A stretch of 64,000 nucleotides of DNA, taken from NCBI GenBank assembly GCA_941918925.1, contig OW799236.1, positions 102,688,562 through 102,752,561 on the forward strand, given 5' to 3'. The DNA comes from Phyto melanocephala (lineage: Eukaryota > Arthropoda > Insecta > Diptera > Rhinophoridae). The notes below the pieces were generated by a model that saw only the letters and a list, made by a program, of their open reading frames with translations, had not been told where the DNA came from and ran no database searches. Positions 33,094-60,990 of this stretch are shown here, piece by piece; position 1 is the first letter of the stretch; every line of letters starts with the position of its first letter. Both the position numbers and the translations under genes were made by a program.

Positions 33094-34289
33094 TGAAAGC
33101 ACGATAGAGGTCGCACCGAAAAAGCTAGGGAGCTCAAATTTTGCCAGAATCTTTCTTATAGATAAGGTTTGTTTGGTATTGAAAATGGGCTAAATCGGAA
33201 TATTAGGAAGAGAGTTATAGCTCGAAAAGCAAGAGTAGGTCGAAAAAACCGTGTCCTTCAAACATCGAATAAAATGGAATTGTGTCCAAACGCATTAACA
33301 TAGACTCATGAAACTTCGAATATATATTTCCTGAGTAAAAGCACTATTTTTCCCCGAAAATTGTCTAAATCTATGCATTAGGAGAGGAGTTATCGATCAA
33401 AATGTACGAAAATTTATACCGCACAGTGTATTTTTCGGTATATTTAAAAACAAAAACGTCATAAAAGCAACAAAATTGGATGTACGACTCTGAAATTTTG
33501 CACACTTTGCTTATTGGTGAGACGCTTTTTTGTAACGGAAAATCAATGTGCCACGCCCACTTTAACGCCCACCTCCCATATAACGTTTTACCCAAAATTC
33601 ATATAATTTCTCAATTTATGTAGATTTTGGAATAATAAAGGGCTATATTGAAACATCTCAGTTGTACCCATTCAAAAATACAACTTTGACACGCCCACTA
33701 TAACGCCCACTTTTCACGTTATATACCGTTAATGAAATTTAAAAGCTCATAAAACCGCCAAAATTAGAGTTATGATGATCAAATTCGCTACGTATATCCT
33801 TTTAGGCAATGTCATTACTGCGCCGGAAAATTAAGGCGCCACGCCCACTTTTACGCCCACCTCCCATATAACGTTTTACTTAAAATTCATATAATTCCTC
33901 TATTAATAAAGATTTTGGAATAATAAAGGACTATATTGAAACACCTAAGTTGTACTCATTCGCAAAAATAACTTTGACACGCCTACTATAACGCCCACTT
34001 TTCACGTTATATACCGTTAATGAAATTTAAAAGCTCATAAAACCGCCAAAATTAGAGGTATGATGATCAAATTTGCTGTGTATATCCTTCTAATCAATGT
34101 TATTGTTGTGCCAAAAAGTTTAGGTGACACGGCCAGTTTAACGCCTACCTCCCATACAACGGCTTACCTTAAATTCATGTAATTTCTCTATTGACAAAGT
34201 TTTTGGGAAAATAAAGGGCTATATTGAAATATTTAAGTTGTATTTATTAGTGGAAACTTTATTGACACAGCTACTTTAACACACTTTCA

Positions 34290-34904: not shown

Positions 34905-35014
34905 TACAAAGAAAGTGATACATATTTTATTATAAAGAGATTATTCCATAATGATTAACAAAATAATAAATATTGTGCTTTAAATGTACACAAAATTGGT
35001 GGTGGGTATAAAAG

Positions 35015-35031
35015 ATTCGGCACAGCCGAAT
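35015..35031 (+). other. 3'-subterminal hairpin of the composite element
   Basis: ATTCGGC-ACA-GCCGAAT: 7-bp perfect stem, 3-base loop, 18 bases before the 3' end. The position matches the hairpin of Helitron-type elements, where it marks the end of transposition. Confidence 0.7.
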
Positions 35032-35582
35032 ATAGTGCTCTTACTTGTTTAATATAGAATTGATCCCATAATTTTTTACATTGTTTTTTGAATTGATTGT
35101 TCAATCTGAATATAATACCTTTTCGGTACAATAAGTTTATTTTTTTAATTTATTTTAATATTTAATTCTTATTAATTTGAGATTTTTTTATTATTGGATT
35201 GATCTTATAATTACTCGTAAATTTATGAAAGTTTTTTATTTACTTTTTTAAACTAAAAGATTTGTGCTTTTGAATTAATTATTTAATATTATTATTTTTA
35301 AATAAAAATTTAAACAAATATCCAATTAAGAATATTAAAAATTAATAAATTTTTATTTAATAATTATAATAAATCTTACAGCGCTCTTTTGTTGGTATTA
35401 TTTCAATGAATAAAGCGCTTAAAAGAGACATGAATTAAGCGCATTTTAAAGGTATGAATTGTAAGCGTCGTTGGTGCTTTGAAAACAGGTCGTAAAAAAT
35501 ACATGATTTGTGCGCCTACTTGATGTCTTTAAAAAAGAGTCCAAAAGAGAGCTGCCAAGTGGGACATCGCGAACAAAAAAAA

Positions 35583-39470: not shown

Positions 39471-40202
39471 TGTATACCCTTCACATGTGGTGCACAAGGG
39501 TATATATAGCTTTGTCATTCCGTTTGTAATTTCAACAATTTTCATTTCCGACCACATAAAGTATATATTTTCTGAAAGCTTATGAATAGAGGAGTCGATT
39601 AAGCCCTGACTGTCTGTCCGTCTGCCCGTCTGTCCGTGTGTTGGTTGAAATCAACTTCTAGAAGCAACTATATGTTCCTCAGATCTCTATATGGTATCAA
39701 TCTCTTGGAAATATCCAGGAATGAATCGCTATTGGAATTCAGCACAATCGCCTTATAACTTTCTGAGATATGAGCAAAAAACCACGACCACTTCGATTTT
39801 TTCACAATTACAACAACAACCTACATACATACTGGTTAAAGTAAACGTGGCATCGAATCCCAGCTGAGCCCAAAAAAAATTAATTTTATTTTATTTAATA
39901 TATTATTTATATTTTATAATATTTTTTTTTAATTAAAAAAAAAAAAAAATTTTATAAAAATTTGTTAAAATTTTATTTAATTTTTTTTTTTAATTTTTTT
40001 TTTATTTTTTTTTTTTGTAATTTTTTTTTTTTATTTTTAATATATTTTTTTTTGCAATTTTTTTTTTGGGTATGTTCTTTACATGTATGTACGTATATTA
40101 TATGAGATGCATGGTGATACAAACATTTGTTTTTGCATGACTACACGTTATGAAGGGTATATATGATTCCGCACGGCCGAATATAGCACTGTTACTTATT
40201 TA
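39471..40202 (+). mobile_element. mini-me-like repeat, second subfamily
   Basis: Starts TGTATACCCTTCACATG with an inner short palindrome (CACATGTGGTG), has the core ACATAAAGTATATATTTTCT, a degenerate GTCY tract (about 39610-39640), and ends GAAGGGTATATATGATTCCG, CACGGCCGAATATAGCACTG, TTACTTATT. The start TATACCCTTC and the end GAAGGGTATA are inverted repeats. The middle includes a homopolymer-rich A/T segment (39890-40070). Its ends are closer to the DINE-1 pattern known in Drosophila than the other copies here are. Confidence 0.78.
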
Positions 40203-40507
40203 TCCTACTGTTACGCAAAATCCATTAAGATAGAAATGTTGATTTTCGAGTGTTTATTTTTTAAAGGGATTTCAAAATTTCTGAATTTAAGCGGATGTGT
40301 GATGAAAATTGAAATCAAAAGCGCATAAATTTAAAAAGTTTTTTTTTAAATATATTTTAAAATATTTTAAAGATTATATTATTTTTATTCTGGCTCAAGT
40401 TCATTTTCATACTAAATTTCTCATATATTTTTCTTTTCATATACATATGAAGAAATCAGTTTTTATTTGTGGTAATGAAAGAATATACTGGAAAAGTATC
40501 TTATTAT

Positions 40508-40579
40508 CCCGACACCAGCCGAGTGGAATGCATTTTCGAAACCAGCTACGGTTTCATCATCAGCACTCTTTTGATCGGG
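40508..40579 (-). ncRNA. Hammerhead ribozyme motif, copy in repeat A
   Basis: On the minus strand the 72 bases are identical to the motif at 41155-41226: all core positions, with stems I, II and III formed. See that entry for residue positions. Confidence 0.72.
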
Positions 40580-41154
40580 ATGTCTTAGTGTTGATAGTAA
40601 ATATCATCTATTTAACTCACAAGTTTATATGAAAATTGATTTTGTAAATTAATTCTTTTACCTATAAACTCATATATTTGCCATGGTGAGTGAGAACGAA
40701 ATTTCTTCAACACTAAAGCTTTTCCCCTTTTTTCTTTGTTATTCTTTTCAATTACCACATTTTAATCGTAGCTTTAAACCATCAGTCTGATGGCAATGAA
40801 AGCTCTTTTTTTGTTGGTTGTTATGCTCACAACTTTTATTTAGATCATACATGTTCTTGTATTTGTCTATATGATCTACACCGTGCCATGTGTAATTGTT
40901 AATTTCCCTTTTATTTAACTGTCGAACTATTTAATATCTTAAAGATTATATTATTTTTATTCTGGCTCAAGTTCATTTTCATACTAAATTTCTCATATAT
41001 TTTCCTTTTCATATACATATGAAGAAATCAGTTTTTATTTGTGGTAATGAAAGAAAATATATATGTTTATAGGTAAAAGAATTAATTTACAAAATCAATT
41101 TTCATATAAACTTGTGAGTTAAATAGATGATATTTACTATCAACACTAAGACAT

Positions 41155-41226
41155 CCCGATCAAAAGAGTGCTGATGATGAAACCGTAGCTGGTTTCGAAA
41201 ATGCATTCCACTCGGCTGGTGTCGGG
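41155..41226 (+). ncRNA. Hammerhead ribozyme motif, copy in repeat C
   Basis: Core CTGATGA (41171-41177) and GAAA (41197-41200). Stem I: GAGTG (41166-41170) with CACTC (41209-41213), then an internal loop, then CCCGA (41155-41159) with TCGGG (41222-41226). Stem II: GAAACC (41179-41184) with GGTTTC (41191-41196), loop GTAGCT. Stem III: two A-T pairs (41200-41201 with 41206-41207) closed by the tetraloop TGCA. The predicted cleavage is after C at 41208 (TTC site). One extra T (41178) lies between the core A and stem II; an extra residue at this place is known from a natural viroid hammerhead. A type I shape with a very short stem III is the form known from Penelope-like elements. Activity is not shown by the sequence. 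Confidence 0.75.
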
Positions 41227-42084
41227 ATAATAAGATACTTTTCCAGTATATTCTTTCATTACCACAAATAAAAACTGATTTCTTCATATGTATATGAAAA
41301 GGAAAATATATGAGAAATTTAGTATGAAAATGAACTTGAGCCAGAATAAAAATAATATAATCTTTAAGATATTAAATAGTTCGACAATTAAATAAAAGGG
41401 AAATTATATTTTAAAATATTTAAAATAATCATCAATGTTTCGTTAATAAAAAACTTTTTATAACAATAATAAAAAAATTGATAATATATTAAATAAACTT
41501 ACAAACCTGATACCTTTTAAATTTTAATCAACAATACCTTAATCCTTTTTTGACCACCACCAAAAAAAATGTCAGGAACTATACTCATTTTTTCATTCTG
41601 CTTGTAACGCATAGAAATATTAATTTTAGATCCTATTTTGGATAATTGAGAACGATCTAGGTATGCCCATCTGTCTGTCCGTCTTTCCTTTTGTTGAAAG
41701 CCGATATAGCTTCAACTAGCTAGGAAGATGAAATTAGTCAAACTATTGCCCATATATTAAAAATGTATGGTGTTGAAAATGTGCTTAATTGGTTTAATAG
41801 GAATAAAAAAAAAACTTTTTATATTTAGTAAATTATGATTGCGTCTTAACATAACGTAACGTTGAGTGATAAAATTTCAAATATATAAGTGTATTTTCTG
41901 AGTAAAATATATACATTTCCTTTAAAATTTTTTTAGATCTGTAAATTATGAAAGAAGTAATAGATTAAAATGCACAAGCAGTAACATTTTAATTTTTTTA
42001 ACATTTAAAATGCTGTTAAGCTGACAGAATTACATATACGATTCTCAACTGTATGAAGCTTATAAGCAAGTATTATTGCAATTA

Positions 42085-45223: not shown

Positions 45224-46837
45224 GTTTAAGATCTATATTCATATTAGGAATTATTTAGCAAAATAGACAAAAACACCAAAGAAAAGAAATAATTTTTCTA
45301 CGCATAAGTAAACGATAATTTAACTAAAAATTATGCTATGGATTAAATTATATTTAGCGTAAGACGAATAACATAACATTGAAAAATTGCTAATTTAAAA
45401 AAGTGTTTACGTTTAGTTTAGTAAGTTTTGCCACATGTGAACGTAGCTGTAGGAACATAGAGACAGTGATTTCTTTCACCTGAATACCAGAAACTTAAAA
45501 GGTTTTTTACTCAAAGTATAAAAAGACATATAATTTATTCCCAGAAAAAAAAATTGGAAGTAGTGCAAATTGATTTACATTTTCAAGACTTCAAAATAAA
45601 TAGTGCAAGGCATTCATTCTAAATGACTTAATAAATGCAAGATAATTTATCATAAATGGCGTGCTTAGAAATAAATGCAACATCATATAAAATATTCTAA
45701 AAATTTAATGTAAACAAACAAAATCAACTATGACGCATCGGACTATTTCAGCAAATATTTATTTATGAGTTCTATTTACTTATTAGAATGAAGGGCAGCT
45801 CATTGATATATTTATGTAAACACTTGATCTACAATGACATGCAAATTTTTAAATCTAACCACTATACTATAACCACTTTGTCACCAGTTGAACTATTGTA
45901 AATTCACTTTTTTTTCATACCCTTTTTTGCTGGGTAGTTTTAATAAATTTGCTGGCTGAATGCTAAAGGAAAACTAATTTAAATTATTTCTTAAAATTAT
46001 ATTTCATAAAATTTTTTTAAACCTTATAACTCGTAAGATTAAAATAGATGTTTTTATTAAAGATTTTTTCATAATGTTTATTTATTTCATTTGTTTGGCT
46101 TCTTATACATATGATGCTAAGGGTATACCTACAGATAAATTATGTAGATAGAAATATGTTAGTTCCGTCTTACTTCAAACTAAGTGGTGAGCATCATCCT
46201 GTCTCAGACAAGCTTTGCTGGTTTTGAAGTTTCACCCTGTAACCACTACATTAACACATTATTATATTAAATAAATATTAGTAAAAATCAAAATGTTTAA
46301 AAATGGTTAATTTGTTAATTTTTAGTCAACAGCCTTGTTTTATTTATATGACTGGTTCAGAACATTAGAATTCAGGTTTGGTTGAAAAGGAGAGGCACTT
46401 AAAGCCCAAACCCAAGACAGGTATACACTTATGCCCAATTGGCATGTTGTGCGCTCCATATAACATAATATATATGTTTTAAAAATTCTACATTTATTGC
46501 ATATACACAGGAAAACCCTTAAGTATTTGGAAAAAATCGATTTGAAGAAGTAGCCCAACTGGTCTATGTTCTATTGAAATTACAGCAGATACATGACTGC
46601 TTCTGTTTCTTAAAAAATGTTGATCACTGTGTTTCGGATTATTCGGATTTTGAAAAAAATCTATCCCTATCGATAAACCATGTACAAATGCATTTTAAAC
46701 AATTTCTCAATACAAGATAATTAATTTTGAAATTCTTTTATAAGTTTCTGTGCGGGTGACAATAAATTGGAAGTCATTGTCTTGAGAGTAACTATCAGAC
46801 TCAGCTTTTTTATCAACTGAAAAGCATGCAGTATGAA
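45224..46837. other. AT-rich stretch, nothing recognised
   Basis: The minus frame 46340-46558 sits in a slightly less AT-rich segment but matches nothing I know. Confidence 0.4.
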
Positions 46838-46982
46838 AACAAGTAAGAGCACTATATTCGGCTGTGCCGAATCTTTTATACCCACCACCAATTTTGTGTA
46901 CATTTAAAGCACAATATTTATTATTTTGTTAATCGCTATGGAATAATCTCTTTATGATAAAATATGTATCACTTTCTTTGTA

Positions 46983-47639: not shown

Positions 47640-48640
47640 TCAATGAAAGTGGGCGTTAAAGTATGCGTGTCAATAAAGTTTCTGCTAATAAATACAACTT
47701 AGACATTTCAATATAGTCCTTTATTTTCCCAAAAACTTTGTCAATAGAGAAATTACATGAATTCAAGATAAACCGTTATATGGGAGGTAGGCGTTAAAGT
47801 GGTCGTGTCACCTAGAAGGATATGTGTAGCGAATTTCATCATCATACCTCTAATTTCGTCGGTTTTATGAGCATTTAAATTTCATTAACGGTAGATAACG
47901 TGAAAAGTGGGCGTTATAGTAGGCGTGTCAAAGCTGGTTTTGCTAATGAGTACAACTAAGGTATTTCAATATAGTCGTTTGTTATTCCAAAATCTTTATT
48001 AATAGAGAAATTATATGAATTTCAGTTAAACCGTTATATGGGATGTGGGCGTGGCACCCAAATTTTTTGGCACAGTAATGACATTGCCTAGGGGGATATA
48101 CGTAGCAAATTTGACCATTATACCTCTAATTTTGGCGGTTTTATGAGCTTTTAAATTTCATTAACGGTAGATTACGTGAAAAGTGGGCGTTAACGTAGGA
48201 GTGTCAAAGTTGTTTTTGCGAATGAGTACAACTTAGGTGTTTCAATATAGCCCTTTATTATTTCAAAATCTTTATTAATAGAGAAATTATATGAATTTTA
48301 GGTAAAACGTTATATGGGAGGTGGGCGTAAAAGTGGGCGTGGCACCTAAATTTTTTGGCACAGTAATGACATTGCCTGGAAGGATATACGTAGCAAATTT
48401 GATCATCATACCTCTAATTTTGGCGGTTTTATGAGCTTTTAAATTTCATTAACGGTAGATAACGTGAAAAGTTGGCGTTATAGTAGGCGTGTCAAAGTTG
48501 TTTTTGCGAATGAACACAACCAAGATGTTTCAATATAGTTCTTTATTATTCCAAAATCTACATAAATTGAGAAATTATATGAATTTTGGGTAAAACGTTA
48601 TATGGGAGGTGGGCGTAAAAGTGGGCGTGGCACATTGATT
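47640..48640 (-). repeat. Tandem GC-rich units of about 260-290 bp in the composite
   Basis: The word GTGGGCGTTATAGTAGGCGT, or close forms, recurs at about 47650, 47908, 48183 and 48471. A second word, GTGGGCGTAAAAGTGGGCGT, lies roughly midway between (about 48045, 48320, 48609). Each unit also has GAGCTTTTAAATTTCATTAA and AGAGAAATTATATGAATTTT. The same units occur in the copies at 33.5, 62.2 and 63.4 kb. Confidence 0.9.
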
Positions 48641-59525: not shown

Positions 59526-60006
59526 AAAAACTTTAAAATTTTAATTTAATTTTTTTTTTCAATATATTAAAACTTTTAAATATAAGTCCTTCTTTCAGTA
59601 AAATAATAATACTTTGGAAAAAAAATTTTTTATTTAATCTTCTAAACGAGGTTTAGTGTTAAGAGCTGAAAAAAGAGTTTAAGTGTTATAGGGTTAAATC
59701 TGGTACACGGAAACGCGTTAAGCGAGACTGTAATTCCAACAATAAAATATATATATTTTCAAAACTTTTTATTTAGTTTTTTTTAATAATGTAAAAAATA
59801 TCTTATGAATTCATAGACAAGACGGTTTTCTGTCACGCTGTTTACGCTTATATTATATTACTAAATTTAATAAAAACAAAATTCCTTTTGAACGGATTTT
59901 TCCTTGAAGTGTGTGCAATCTTAATCGTTTAAAATTGGTTCGAAATTCTAGGAGTCATAGGCGTTTAAAACTGCTACTAAAACATGCGCAAACTACATTT
60001 GTTAAA
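59526..60006. other. AT-rich stretch with a possible piggyBac-like end
   Basis: AGGTTTAGTGTTAAGAGC (59650) and GTGTTATAGGGTTAA (to about 59695) resemble, in reverse, the CCCTTTAACACTAAACC end at 24540. No transposase is present. Confidence 0.3.
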
Positions 60007-60990
60007 AACAAGTAAGAGCACTATATTCGGCTGTGCCGAATATTTTATACCCACCACCAATTTTGTGTACATTTAAAGCACAATATTTATTATTTTGTTA
60101 ATCGCTATAGAATAATCTCTTTATAATAAAATATGTATCACTTTCTTTGTAGAGGGTGGTTAAATTTTAAGGGCCCATGCTTAAGGTGAACCACATCTAA
60201 ACTTCAACTTTTTTCTTGTATTTCGTTTGAGATTTCTCAATCTCAGACTAACTCAATTTGAACCGTGGAAAAATACGCAATCGAGCAACGCTTTTAAATA
60301 TTAAAGATTTTTATAAAAATGGGCGTTCAAATCAAAATGCATTTTGTGCACTTCGTGATTCTTTTGGTCAACATAATCGTTCGAATTTGTCCACAATCGT
60401 GAGAATTGTAAAAAATATTTAAATGTCTGCAAAGCAGGTCTGTATGAAATGTGAAAACATCTGTGAATGCCATCTTAGTTCGTTGAATGGGAAACATTGT
60501 TGTTTTTCACGATAACGTGGCAAAAGAGCAAGCAACCTCGACTCATCATCGTGCCCACCAATCGAGCATCAACAGTGTCATTGAAAATTTAGACTATCGG
60601 ATCGTGGTGTGCCGCCTAGGTTGGGGGGCCATTTGGCCGATATTTTGTTCCATACATAATTGAAGCATACAAATATTATCATTATAAAAATAAATGATAA
60701 TAATTTCATAATAATTTTATTCAAAATCAACATAGTCCCTTAAATAAAATTAAACCACCCATTATAACTTCGGTATGCTGGTAAAAAGTTTTCGTAAATT
60801 TAGTCTTTCAATGAAAGTGGCCGTTAGAATACGCGTGCCAATAAAGTTTCTGCTAATAAGCATAACTTAGATATTATAATATAGTCCTCTAGTATTCCAA
60901 AATCTTTATTCATGGAGAATTTACATTAATTTAAGAGGAAGAAAGTGAATTTAAGGTTAAATTTTAAGGGCCACAGGGTGGTTTAAAATA
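60007..60990 (-). mobile_element. Composite mini-me/Helentron-like element, 3' part
   Basis: 3' end ACAAGTAAGAGCACTATATT with the hairpin, the deleted mariner (60152-60762), and part of one tandem unit (GTCTTTCAATGAAAGTGG near 60803). After about 60950 comes a duplicated scrap of the mariner end (TTAAATTTTAAGGGCCACAG) and then unrelated AT-rich DNA (61000-61370). A further piece of the same element resumes at 61378. Confidence 0.8.
60152..60762 (+). mobile_element. Internally deleted mariner-like element in the composite
   Basis: TA at 60150-60151 and 60763-60764; ends AGGGTGGTTAAATTTTAAGG and AAATAAAATTAAACCACCC. It shares the N- and C-terminal transposase pieces with the 46983 copy (VEKYAIEQR near 60268; C-terminus near 60600-60660), with additional stops. 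Confidence 0.85.

Follow-up and report, generated by a model that had tools for sequence, protein, structure and literature searches.

Features of the locus

The window analysed here is a stretch of 64,000 nt from the fly Phyto melanocephala (C4:102688562-102752561 of the 740-Mb assembly in 9 contigs that was searched as the genome). It carries two copies of a predicted hammerhead motif, which is part of a 572-nt unit with many genomic copies, a point missed by the preliminary description. The features of the insertion are listed below (unit positions refer to the 572-nt unit; PLE, Penelope-like element; S3, a divergent subfamily of the repeat; short and long ends are defined further below).

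40351..40367: candidate 17-nt target-site duplication TATATTTTAAAATATTT, left copy
40361..41406: whole insertion; a minus arm (unit 193-572 then 1-319, 699 nt) head-to-head with a plus arm (unit 1-352)
40361..40367, minus strand: short 3' end of the minus arm (unit about 312-319)
40508..40579, minus strand: identical hammerhead motif, copy 1, by sequence identity
40680..40899, minus strand: unit part 353-572, present once only in the insertion
40924..40974, minus strand: internal copy, in the minus arm, of the predicted stem-loop at 41332..41382
41155..41226, plus strand: copy 2 of the predicted type I hammerhead motif, at unit 101-172, with cleavage predicted after 41208
41171..41178, plus strand: core CTGATGA (41171-41177) and one extra base, T 41178, before stem II
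41179..41196, plus strand: stem II with loop, GAAACC GTAGCT GGTTTC (44/44 cells paired in the comparison below)
41200..41207, plus strand: palindrome AATGCATT, a 2-bp stem III with tetraloop or an 8-bp stem III in a dimer; the same in S3 arrays
41332..41382, plus strand: predicted stem-loop GAACTT...TAGTTC near the 3' end, common to several PLEs; its loop holds the short ends, and the long ends come directly behind it
41404..41406, plus strand: long 3' end of the plus arm (unit about 350-352)
41405..41421: candidate 17-nt target-site duplication, right copy

The 72 bases of 41155-41226 on the plus strand are the reverse complement of 40508-40579 without any difference, as the preliminary description had stated, and both copies sit inside larger inverted repeats of 319 and 160 nt. 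The conserved core and the three stems that it had described were likewise found in both copies. Stem I consists of the halves CCCGA/TCGGG and GAGTG/CACTC with an internal loop between them, and its CCCGA/TCGGG part grows to 7 bp if 41153-41154 and 41227-41228 are included. After stem II, the core continues with GAA and then the 8-base palindrome; the predicted cleavage position, C41208, corresponds to unit 154. The hallmarks of a type I hammerhead are present: the core CUGANGA / GAAA, H17, an A-U pair at the base of stem III and an open stem I.

The surrounding 2 kb have a G+C content of 26%. A dispersed repeat of 47-56 nt adjoins the element (40155-40210) and recurs at 35004-35051, 46829-46883 and 60006-60052. 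The window also holds two arrays of 288-nt tandem repeats (33536-34242 and 47811-48633) and, at 499-1905, a Gypsy-type integrase fragment (Integrase_H2C2, rve) whose best named relatives are from the calyptrate flies Stomoxys, Lucilia and Musca, higher-scoring matches being unnamed. A search of a plasmid collection gave no match.

The predicted hammerhead fold

A hammerhead descriptor run over the whole window returned only the two copies. Dinucleotide shuffles matched it in 0 of 2000 cases at the observed stem lengths and in 2 of 2000 at looser lengths, which agrees with the earlier claim that chance is an unlikely origin, the descriptor being partly fitted to the motif in that it permitted the extra base. 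The preliminary description had also proposed a search with the Rfam hammerhead models, and had counted a failure to match, jointly with two other outcomes, against the motif; no hammerhead model matched at gathering or relaxed thresholds (E <= 10, 106 bases). An Rfam match is a feature of the database, not what defines a hammerhead ribozyme.

The hammerhead fold of the 72-mer has a predicted energy of -13.4 kcal/mol at 37 C, 8.4 kcal/mol above the minimum-energy fold (-21.8 kcal/mol), and 46 of 1000 shuffles of the 72-mer reach the stability of this minimum. Folded as a circle, the 572-nt unit exceeds its own shuffles in stability (z -4.2, 200 shuffles). In the stretch 41071-41246 (unit about 18-192), splice-like signals lie on either side of the hammerhead, TATAG/GTAAAAG and TTTTCCAG/ (slash, splice position), and the stretch GTAAAAG...TTTTCCAG that encloses the hammerhead was weighed as a predicted intron.

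An apparently non-coding repeat in tandem and inverted copies

In the genome, the 72 bases were unchanged at 40 of 40 scored places (1037 candidates), which is a lower bound; all listed places are on one contig and the window's own two copies are absent from them. The loci fetched resolve into 25 distinct insertions, or 26 with that of the window. These 26 belong to two subfamilies, S1 (572-nt unit, about 98% identical to the window) and S2 (559 nt in L026, 92% identical to S1, with single units that vary, such as 583 nt in L037). All map to the 572-nt unit, occurring as multimers joined head-to-tail, as truncated pieces and as inverted arms in head-to-head arrangement.

A tandem S1 unit has no stop-free run longer than 89 aa, and none of 120 PLE-like proteins had a match within the window; the repeat lacks the reverse transcriptase (RT) and GIY-YIG endonuclease gene of an autonomous PLE. 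The repeat is apparently non-coding, with no frame long enough for an RT. The preliminary description had spoken of an inverted-repeat mobile element. Mobility stands; the simple inverted repeat does not, as the element is a non-autonomous, retrozyme-like tandem repeat inserted head-to-head.

A divergent relative, S3, with 543-nt units, was first met around an inserted PLE of the L060 family. A search with S3 gave 217 matches (39 of 329 candidates scored). In a BLAST comparison of S1 with the S3 copy that holds this PLE, two stretches alone could be aligned, the hammerhead (88%, 73 nt) and the 3'-end region (72%, 110 nt). Where an L060-family PLE lies inside an S3 copy (L072/L073, C2:27536000-27544300), ATTCCTAAAATG is visible by eye at both flanks.

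Non-coding tandem units with one predicted type I hammerhead each are what is expected of a retrozyme. As far as the excerpts of Cervera and de la Pena 2020 (PMC7229834) describe them, the metazoan non-LTR retrozymes are similar in forming tandem repeats without a coding frame, in having one type I hammerhead per unit, a low G+C content and duplications at the ends, and they are proposed to spread as RNA circles. Their units are given there as 170-400 nt, against about 543-572 nt here, which is a matter of reported range and not of mechanism. Unlike the retrozymes as portrayed in those excerpts, our repeat has head-to-head arms, two clusters of 3' ends and a PLE-type end motif.

Penelope-like elements of the same genome

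PLE-like proteins were collected with an approximate query; 4435 proteins matched at E <= 0.001, and the listing comprised 120 of them. Many of those listed have RT domains, and one (P0063) is listed with a GIY-YIG domain. Against the genome, a mosquito PLE-like protein (P0039) had 1275 candidate matches, 123 of them scored, with frames of up to 859 aa, arranged in tandem and inverted sets. An 838-aa frame (L042) contains an RVT_1 domain and is 40% identical to P0063 over 220 aa. Two PLE frames with RVT_1, L042 among them, gave no Pfam GIY-YIG match at E <= 0.01, although a YVGT...R...H stretch is visible by eye. Searching the genome for Pfam GIY-YIG produced a single match, which from its sequence we take to be SLX1-like. 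The identity of the frames as PLEs is likely, and rests on protein matches and on anatomy. A weak PLE-like match beside L023 was set aside, as by eye it looked like another RT (GTPQGG, YADD). A scan of IMG/VR with one PLE protein found no relative.

We inspected 22 windows upstream of PLE matches, 20 picked for long frames and 2 from 12 P0039 loci. On the 12 P0039 loci the strict hammerhead descriptor found nothing, and a looser one succeeded. With this looser search (CTGANGA, then GAAA only), a hammerhead was found in 13 of the 22 windows, in seven sequence types, and not in the other 9.

Predicted hammerheads of the repeat and of the PLEs

Nine hammerhead types of this genome could thus be compared: the seven PLE types, found upstream of RT frames, and those of S1 and S3. 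In all seven PLE types, stem II pairs over 5 to 7 bp if one base is skipped after CTGANGA, and in none of them if no base is skipped. The extra T 41178, which had been presented as the single non-canonical point of the motif, is therefore a common trait: one extra base follows CTGANGA in 9 of 9 types, PLE and repeat alike. In a viroid hammerhead, the extra base is reportedly positioned before helix II. The viroid provides an example of an extra base in a natural hammerhead (PMC3705267, in part).

Stem II pairs in 9/9 types (44/44 cells), and 4 of its 5 pairs are changed on both sides; sliding the stem II partner abolishes the pairing. The covariation score was reached by 0 of 500 shuffles, the count of two-sided pairs by 52 of 500. 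The compensatory changes that the preliminary description had suggested looking for in genome copies are thus present in stem II across the nine types. In S3, C29-G38 of stem II has become U-A, a true double change, and AATGCATT is kept in the arrays read. By eye, stem I of the repeat (5 + 7 bp with an internal loop) is fuller than that of the PLE hammerheads.

In the 26 S1/S2 insertions, 42 of 49 motif copies of at least 60 nt are perfect, a proportion biased by the picking of loci through the motif. One imperfect copy lacks the first base; the six base changes, assigned by hand, comprise three that leave a pair as G-U and three in the stem I loop.

Another reading takes the hammerhead for a dead motif or one that arose by chance, and gives the conserved stretch a different role, for example in protein binding. 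The missing Rfam match and the competing minimum-energy fold would fit such a reading, as would the equal lack of change between S1 and S2 in the ~60 nt that precede the motif. However, neither the shuffles nor the stem II covariation in nine types is expected from it, and the mostly perfect motif copies, with base changes confined to G-U pairs and the stem I loop, speak against it as well, so that we regard it as very improbable. The comparison supports 41155-41226 as a predicted type I hammerhead, its self-cleavage remaining a prediction from sequence. The Penelope-associated kind that had been proposed for it also fits: the PLE hammerheads of this genome have one extra base likewise, and the element has Penelope-type ends.

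Insertion ends and target-site duplications

We mapped 47 3' ends of S1/S2 insertions, of which 42 are clustered: 20 are short (unit 296-330), 22 are long (unit 340-365) and 5 lie elsewhere. Among the 21 insertions with two ends, 17 combine a short with a long end, 3 a long with an odd end and 1 a short with an odd end; none has two of a kind. The 17/17 short/long pairing has a chance of 8e-6 if the classes are independent and equal, the ends having been transcribed by hand and the class limits fixed after inspection of the data. One odd-ended insertion (L021) has a further piece, up to unit 313, past an interruption of ~0.9 kb (L022), and may be an eighteenth short/long insertion. Among five S3 insertions with readable ends, four are short plus long, and both ends of the fifth (L083) are long. 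We considered and dropped a foldback DNA transposon, as the two ends differ and obey the short/long rule.

Direct repeats of at least 10 nt flank 16 of 26 insertions, compared with 36 of 650 mismatched flank pairs, which served as the control because the flanks are AT-rich. The insertions thus combine inverted terminal copies, a tail at one end and a target duplication. PLEs have been described with an inverted pLTR, a 30-40-nt tail on one copy and short target duplications (PMC3846280, in part), and their insertion with two RT start sites and both strands cut (PMC11167929, in part). Since the ends and duplications of the repeat reproduce the anatomy reported for PLEs, we read them as insertion in the manner of a PLE.

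Were the template usually cut linear RNA, 5' ends would be expected to start at unit 155. Of 46 mapped 5' ends, none lies at this predicted cleavage site and one lies within 2 nt; none was at the site among the 5' ends visible in the S3 arrays examined. The genome therefore appears to favour uncut or closed templates. Four of the 46 fall in unit 155-165, where 0.9 would be expected, and unit 191-208 holds the main cluster (8/46, reached by uniform placement in 5 of 300 simulations). A single 3' end, that of L029, lies at unit 153, next to the cleavage site. The acceptor-like site TTTTCCAG/ coincides with the 5' end cluster at unit 191-208.

A predicted stem-loop shared at the 3' ends

For unit 273-310, an alignment was obtained with 38 nt that follow the hammerhead of the PLE L060 (79%, E 0.002). 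The motif GANCT(T/C)(A/G)AGC(C/T) with a downstream partner AGNTC occurs in 9 of the 22 PLE windows and in S1, S2 and S3, and was not found in 13 of the 22; the pattern was composed after some instances had already been inspected. A slightly stricter form has 2 matches in the window, both within the element, and 8 in 200 shuffles of the 64 kb. The third pair of the stem is A-U, U-A or C-G depending on the family and the other pairs are near-invariant, a covariation count that carries little weight because the partners were selected by their pairing.

In three PLE families, copies end at related positions: in the L060 family at 719-721 (one copy) or 762-765 (two), in the L057 family at 737-740 (two), and in the L054 family at 770 (one) and near 731-743 (one). 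In all seven the end falls within the loop of the shared stem or immediately beyond it, and the ends of the repeat fall in the same two places relative to this stem. Just past the long end, ACACATGGCACGGTGT (unit 359-374; L073 149-164) is unchanged between S1 and S3, and the PLEs have, by eye, a GGCAC-containing sequence at a similar place.

The excerpts of the papers on PLEs with minimal hammerheads (PMC3846280, PMC11167929) describe further likenesses: a type I hammerhead whose stem III is minimal and palindromic, terminal copies in inverted orientation, a tail of 30-40 nt at one end, duplicated targets and AT-rich sites. The PLEs of this genome resemble the repeat also in the extra hammerhead base. 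Unlike PLEs, the repeat lacks an RT or endonuclease frame, has the fuller stem I and is built of units of about 0.55 kb, against a PLE unit of ~2.85 kb. Terminons also have a PLE-like hammerhead near the 3' end; in the excerpts of PMC6431247 they are giant, coding and telomeric, and our repeat shows nothing comparable.

Uniformity of S3 arrays

The arms of S3 can be long, with 12 to 16 units; at C5:6226853-6240392, 12 minus-strand units are followed head-to-head by at least 11 plus-strand units. We compared six S3 arrays, selected for length, with 42 full units. All 42 units carry the variants of their own array (3, 1, 1, 3, 3 and 2 per array; two variants occur in two arrays), and in all four arrays with full units in both arms, the variants are present in both. 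The exceptions are 8 further single-unit changes, one site in L093 at which five units differ from three, and an A added in L092 at different places in the two arms. Differences amount to 0.15% within an arm, 0.17% between arms and 0.96% between arrays. The corresponding values in S1/S2 (1.0%, 1.2%, and 2.0-2.5% between insertions) show a smaller excess and are suggestive.

The uniformity of the S3 arrays is as expected if one RNA, probably a circle, had been copied many times. Alternatively, uniform arrays could arise by gene conversion, or if an older array, already uniform, had served as the source of linear transcripts. A separate reading would make the repeat an ordinary satellite or foldback repeat that spread by recombination and gene conversion and happens to contain a hammerhead-like stretch. 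The tandem and inverted arrangement and the uniform arrays would be accommodated; it seems hardly credible, though, that such a repeat should insert at dispersed places between flanking duplications, show 3' ends in two clusters that follow the short/long rule, and bear a PLE-type motif at these ends.

The repeat could also be a shortened, degenerate PLE derivative. It would have moved as an ordinary PLE from linear RNA, with an inherited hammerhead that plays no role. Hammerhead, end motif and ends are all PLE-like, the hammerhead of a PLE was dispensable for insertion in vitro (PMC11167929, in part), and 0 of 46 5' ends are at the cleavage site. However, the repeat has a fuller stem I than the PLE hammerheads, the hammerhead and the 3'-end region are the parts that can still be aligned between S1 and S3, and rolling copying is the better fit for arms of 12 to 16 units whose sequence is uniform within each array. 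We therefore consider this derivation rather unlikely.

A possible parasite of Penelope-like elements

Our preferred reading, to which we assign a probability of roughly 0.8, is that the repeat is a PLE-mobilised, retrozyme-like parasite with a type I hammerhead, likely copied by a PLE RT and probably from circles. It would be a parasite of PLEs because it has no frame long enough for an RT of its own. The ribozyme would cut multimeric transcripts, perhaps in dimeric form by way of the palindromic stem III, and the monomers would be closed into RNA circles. The PLE RT would start at two sites ~40 nt apart, one for each broken DNA end, and travel round the circle several times; the two cDNA arms would then be joined head-to-head.

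More tentatively, and at somewhat less than even odds, the repeat may be an obligate parasite among retrozymes, whose circles are copied repeatedly from both ends of one PLE-cut site, with two fixed starts in the stem-loop shared with PLEs, giving a dozen or more near-identical units per arm. If this is true, it would join the worlds of retrozymes and Penelope elements and suggest a use for the PLE hammerhead, namely the making of circular templates.

Retrozymes and PLE hammerheads are already known; what is new is a direct anatomical link between them within one genome, and the open-licence PMC papers searched included none found to show it. In the parts of the literature at hand, PLEs have been proposed as the movers of metazoan retrozymes (PMC7229834, PMC7761336, PMC11722881), on the ground that both have type I hammerheads and co-occur (PMC7229834, PMC7761336). 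In this genome, the repeat and the PLEs have in common an end motif, two end positions and an unusual hammerhead core, and the proposal is therefore directly testable with purified PLE protein. Copying by PLEs would answer the question of what moves the hammerhead retrozymes of animals. The arrays look like a genomic record of PLE insertion, with two starts, one per arm, and several rounds per template.
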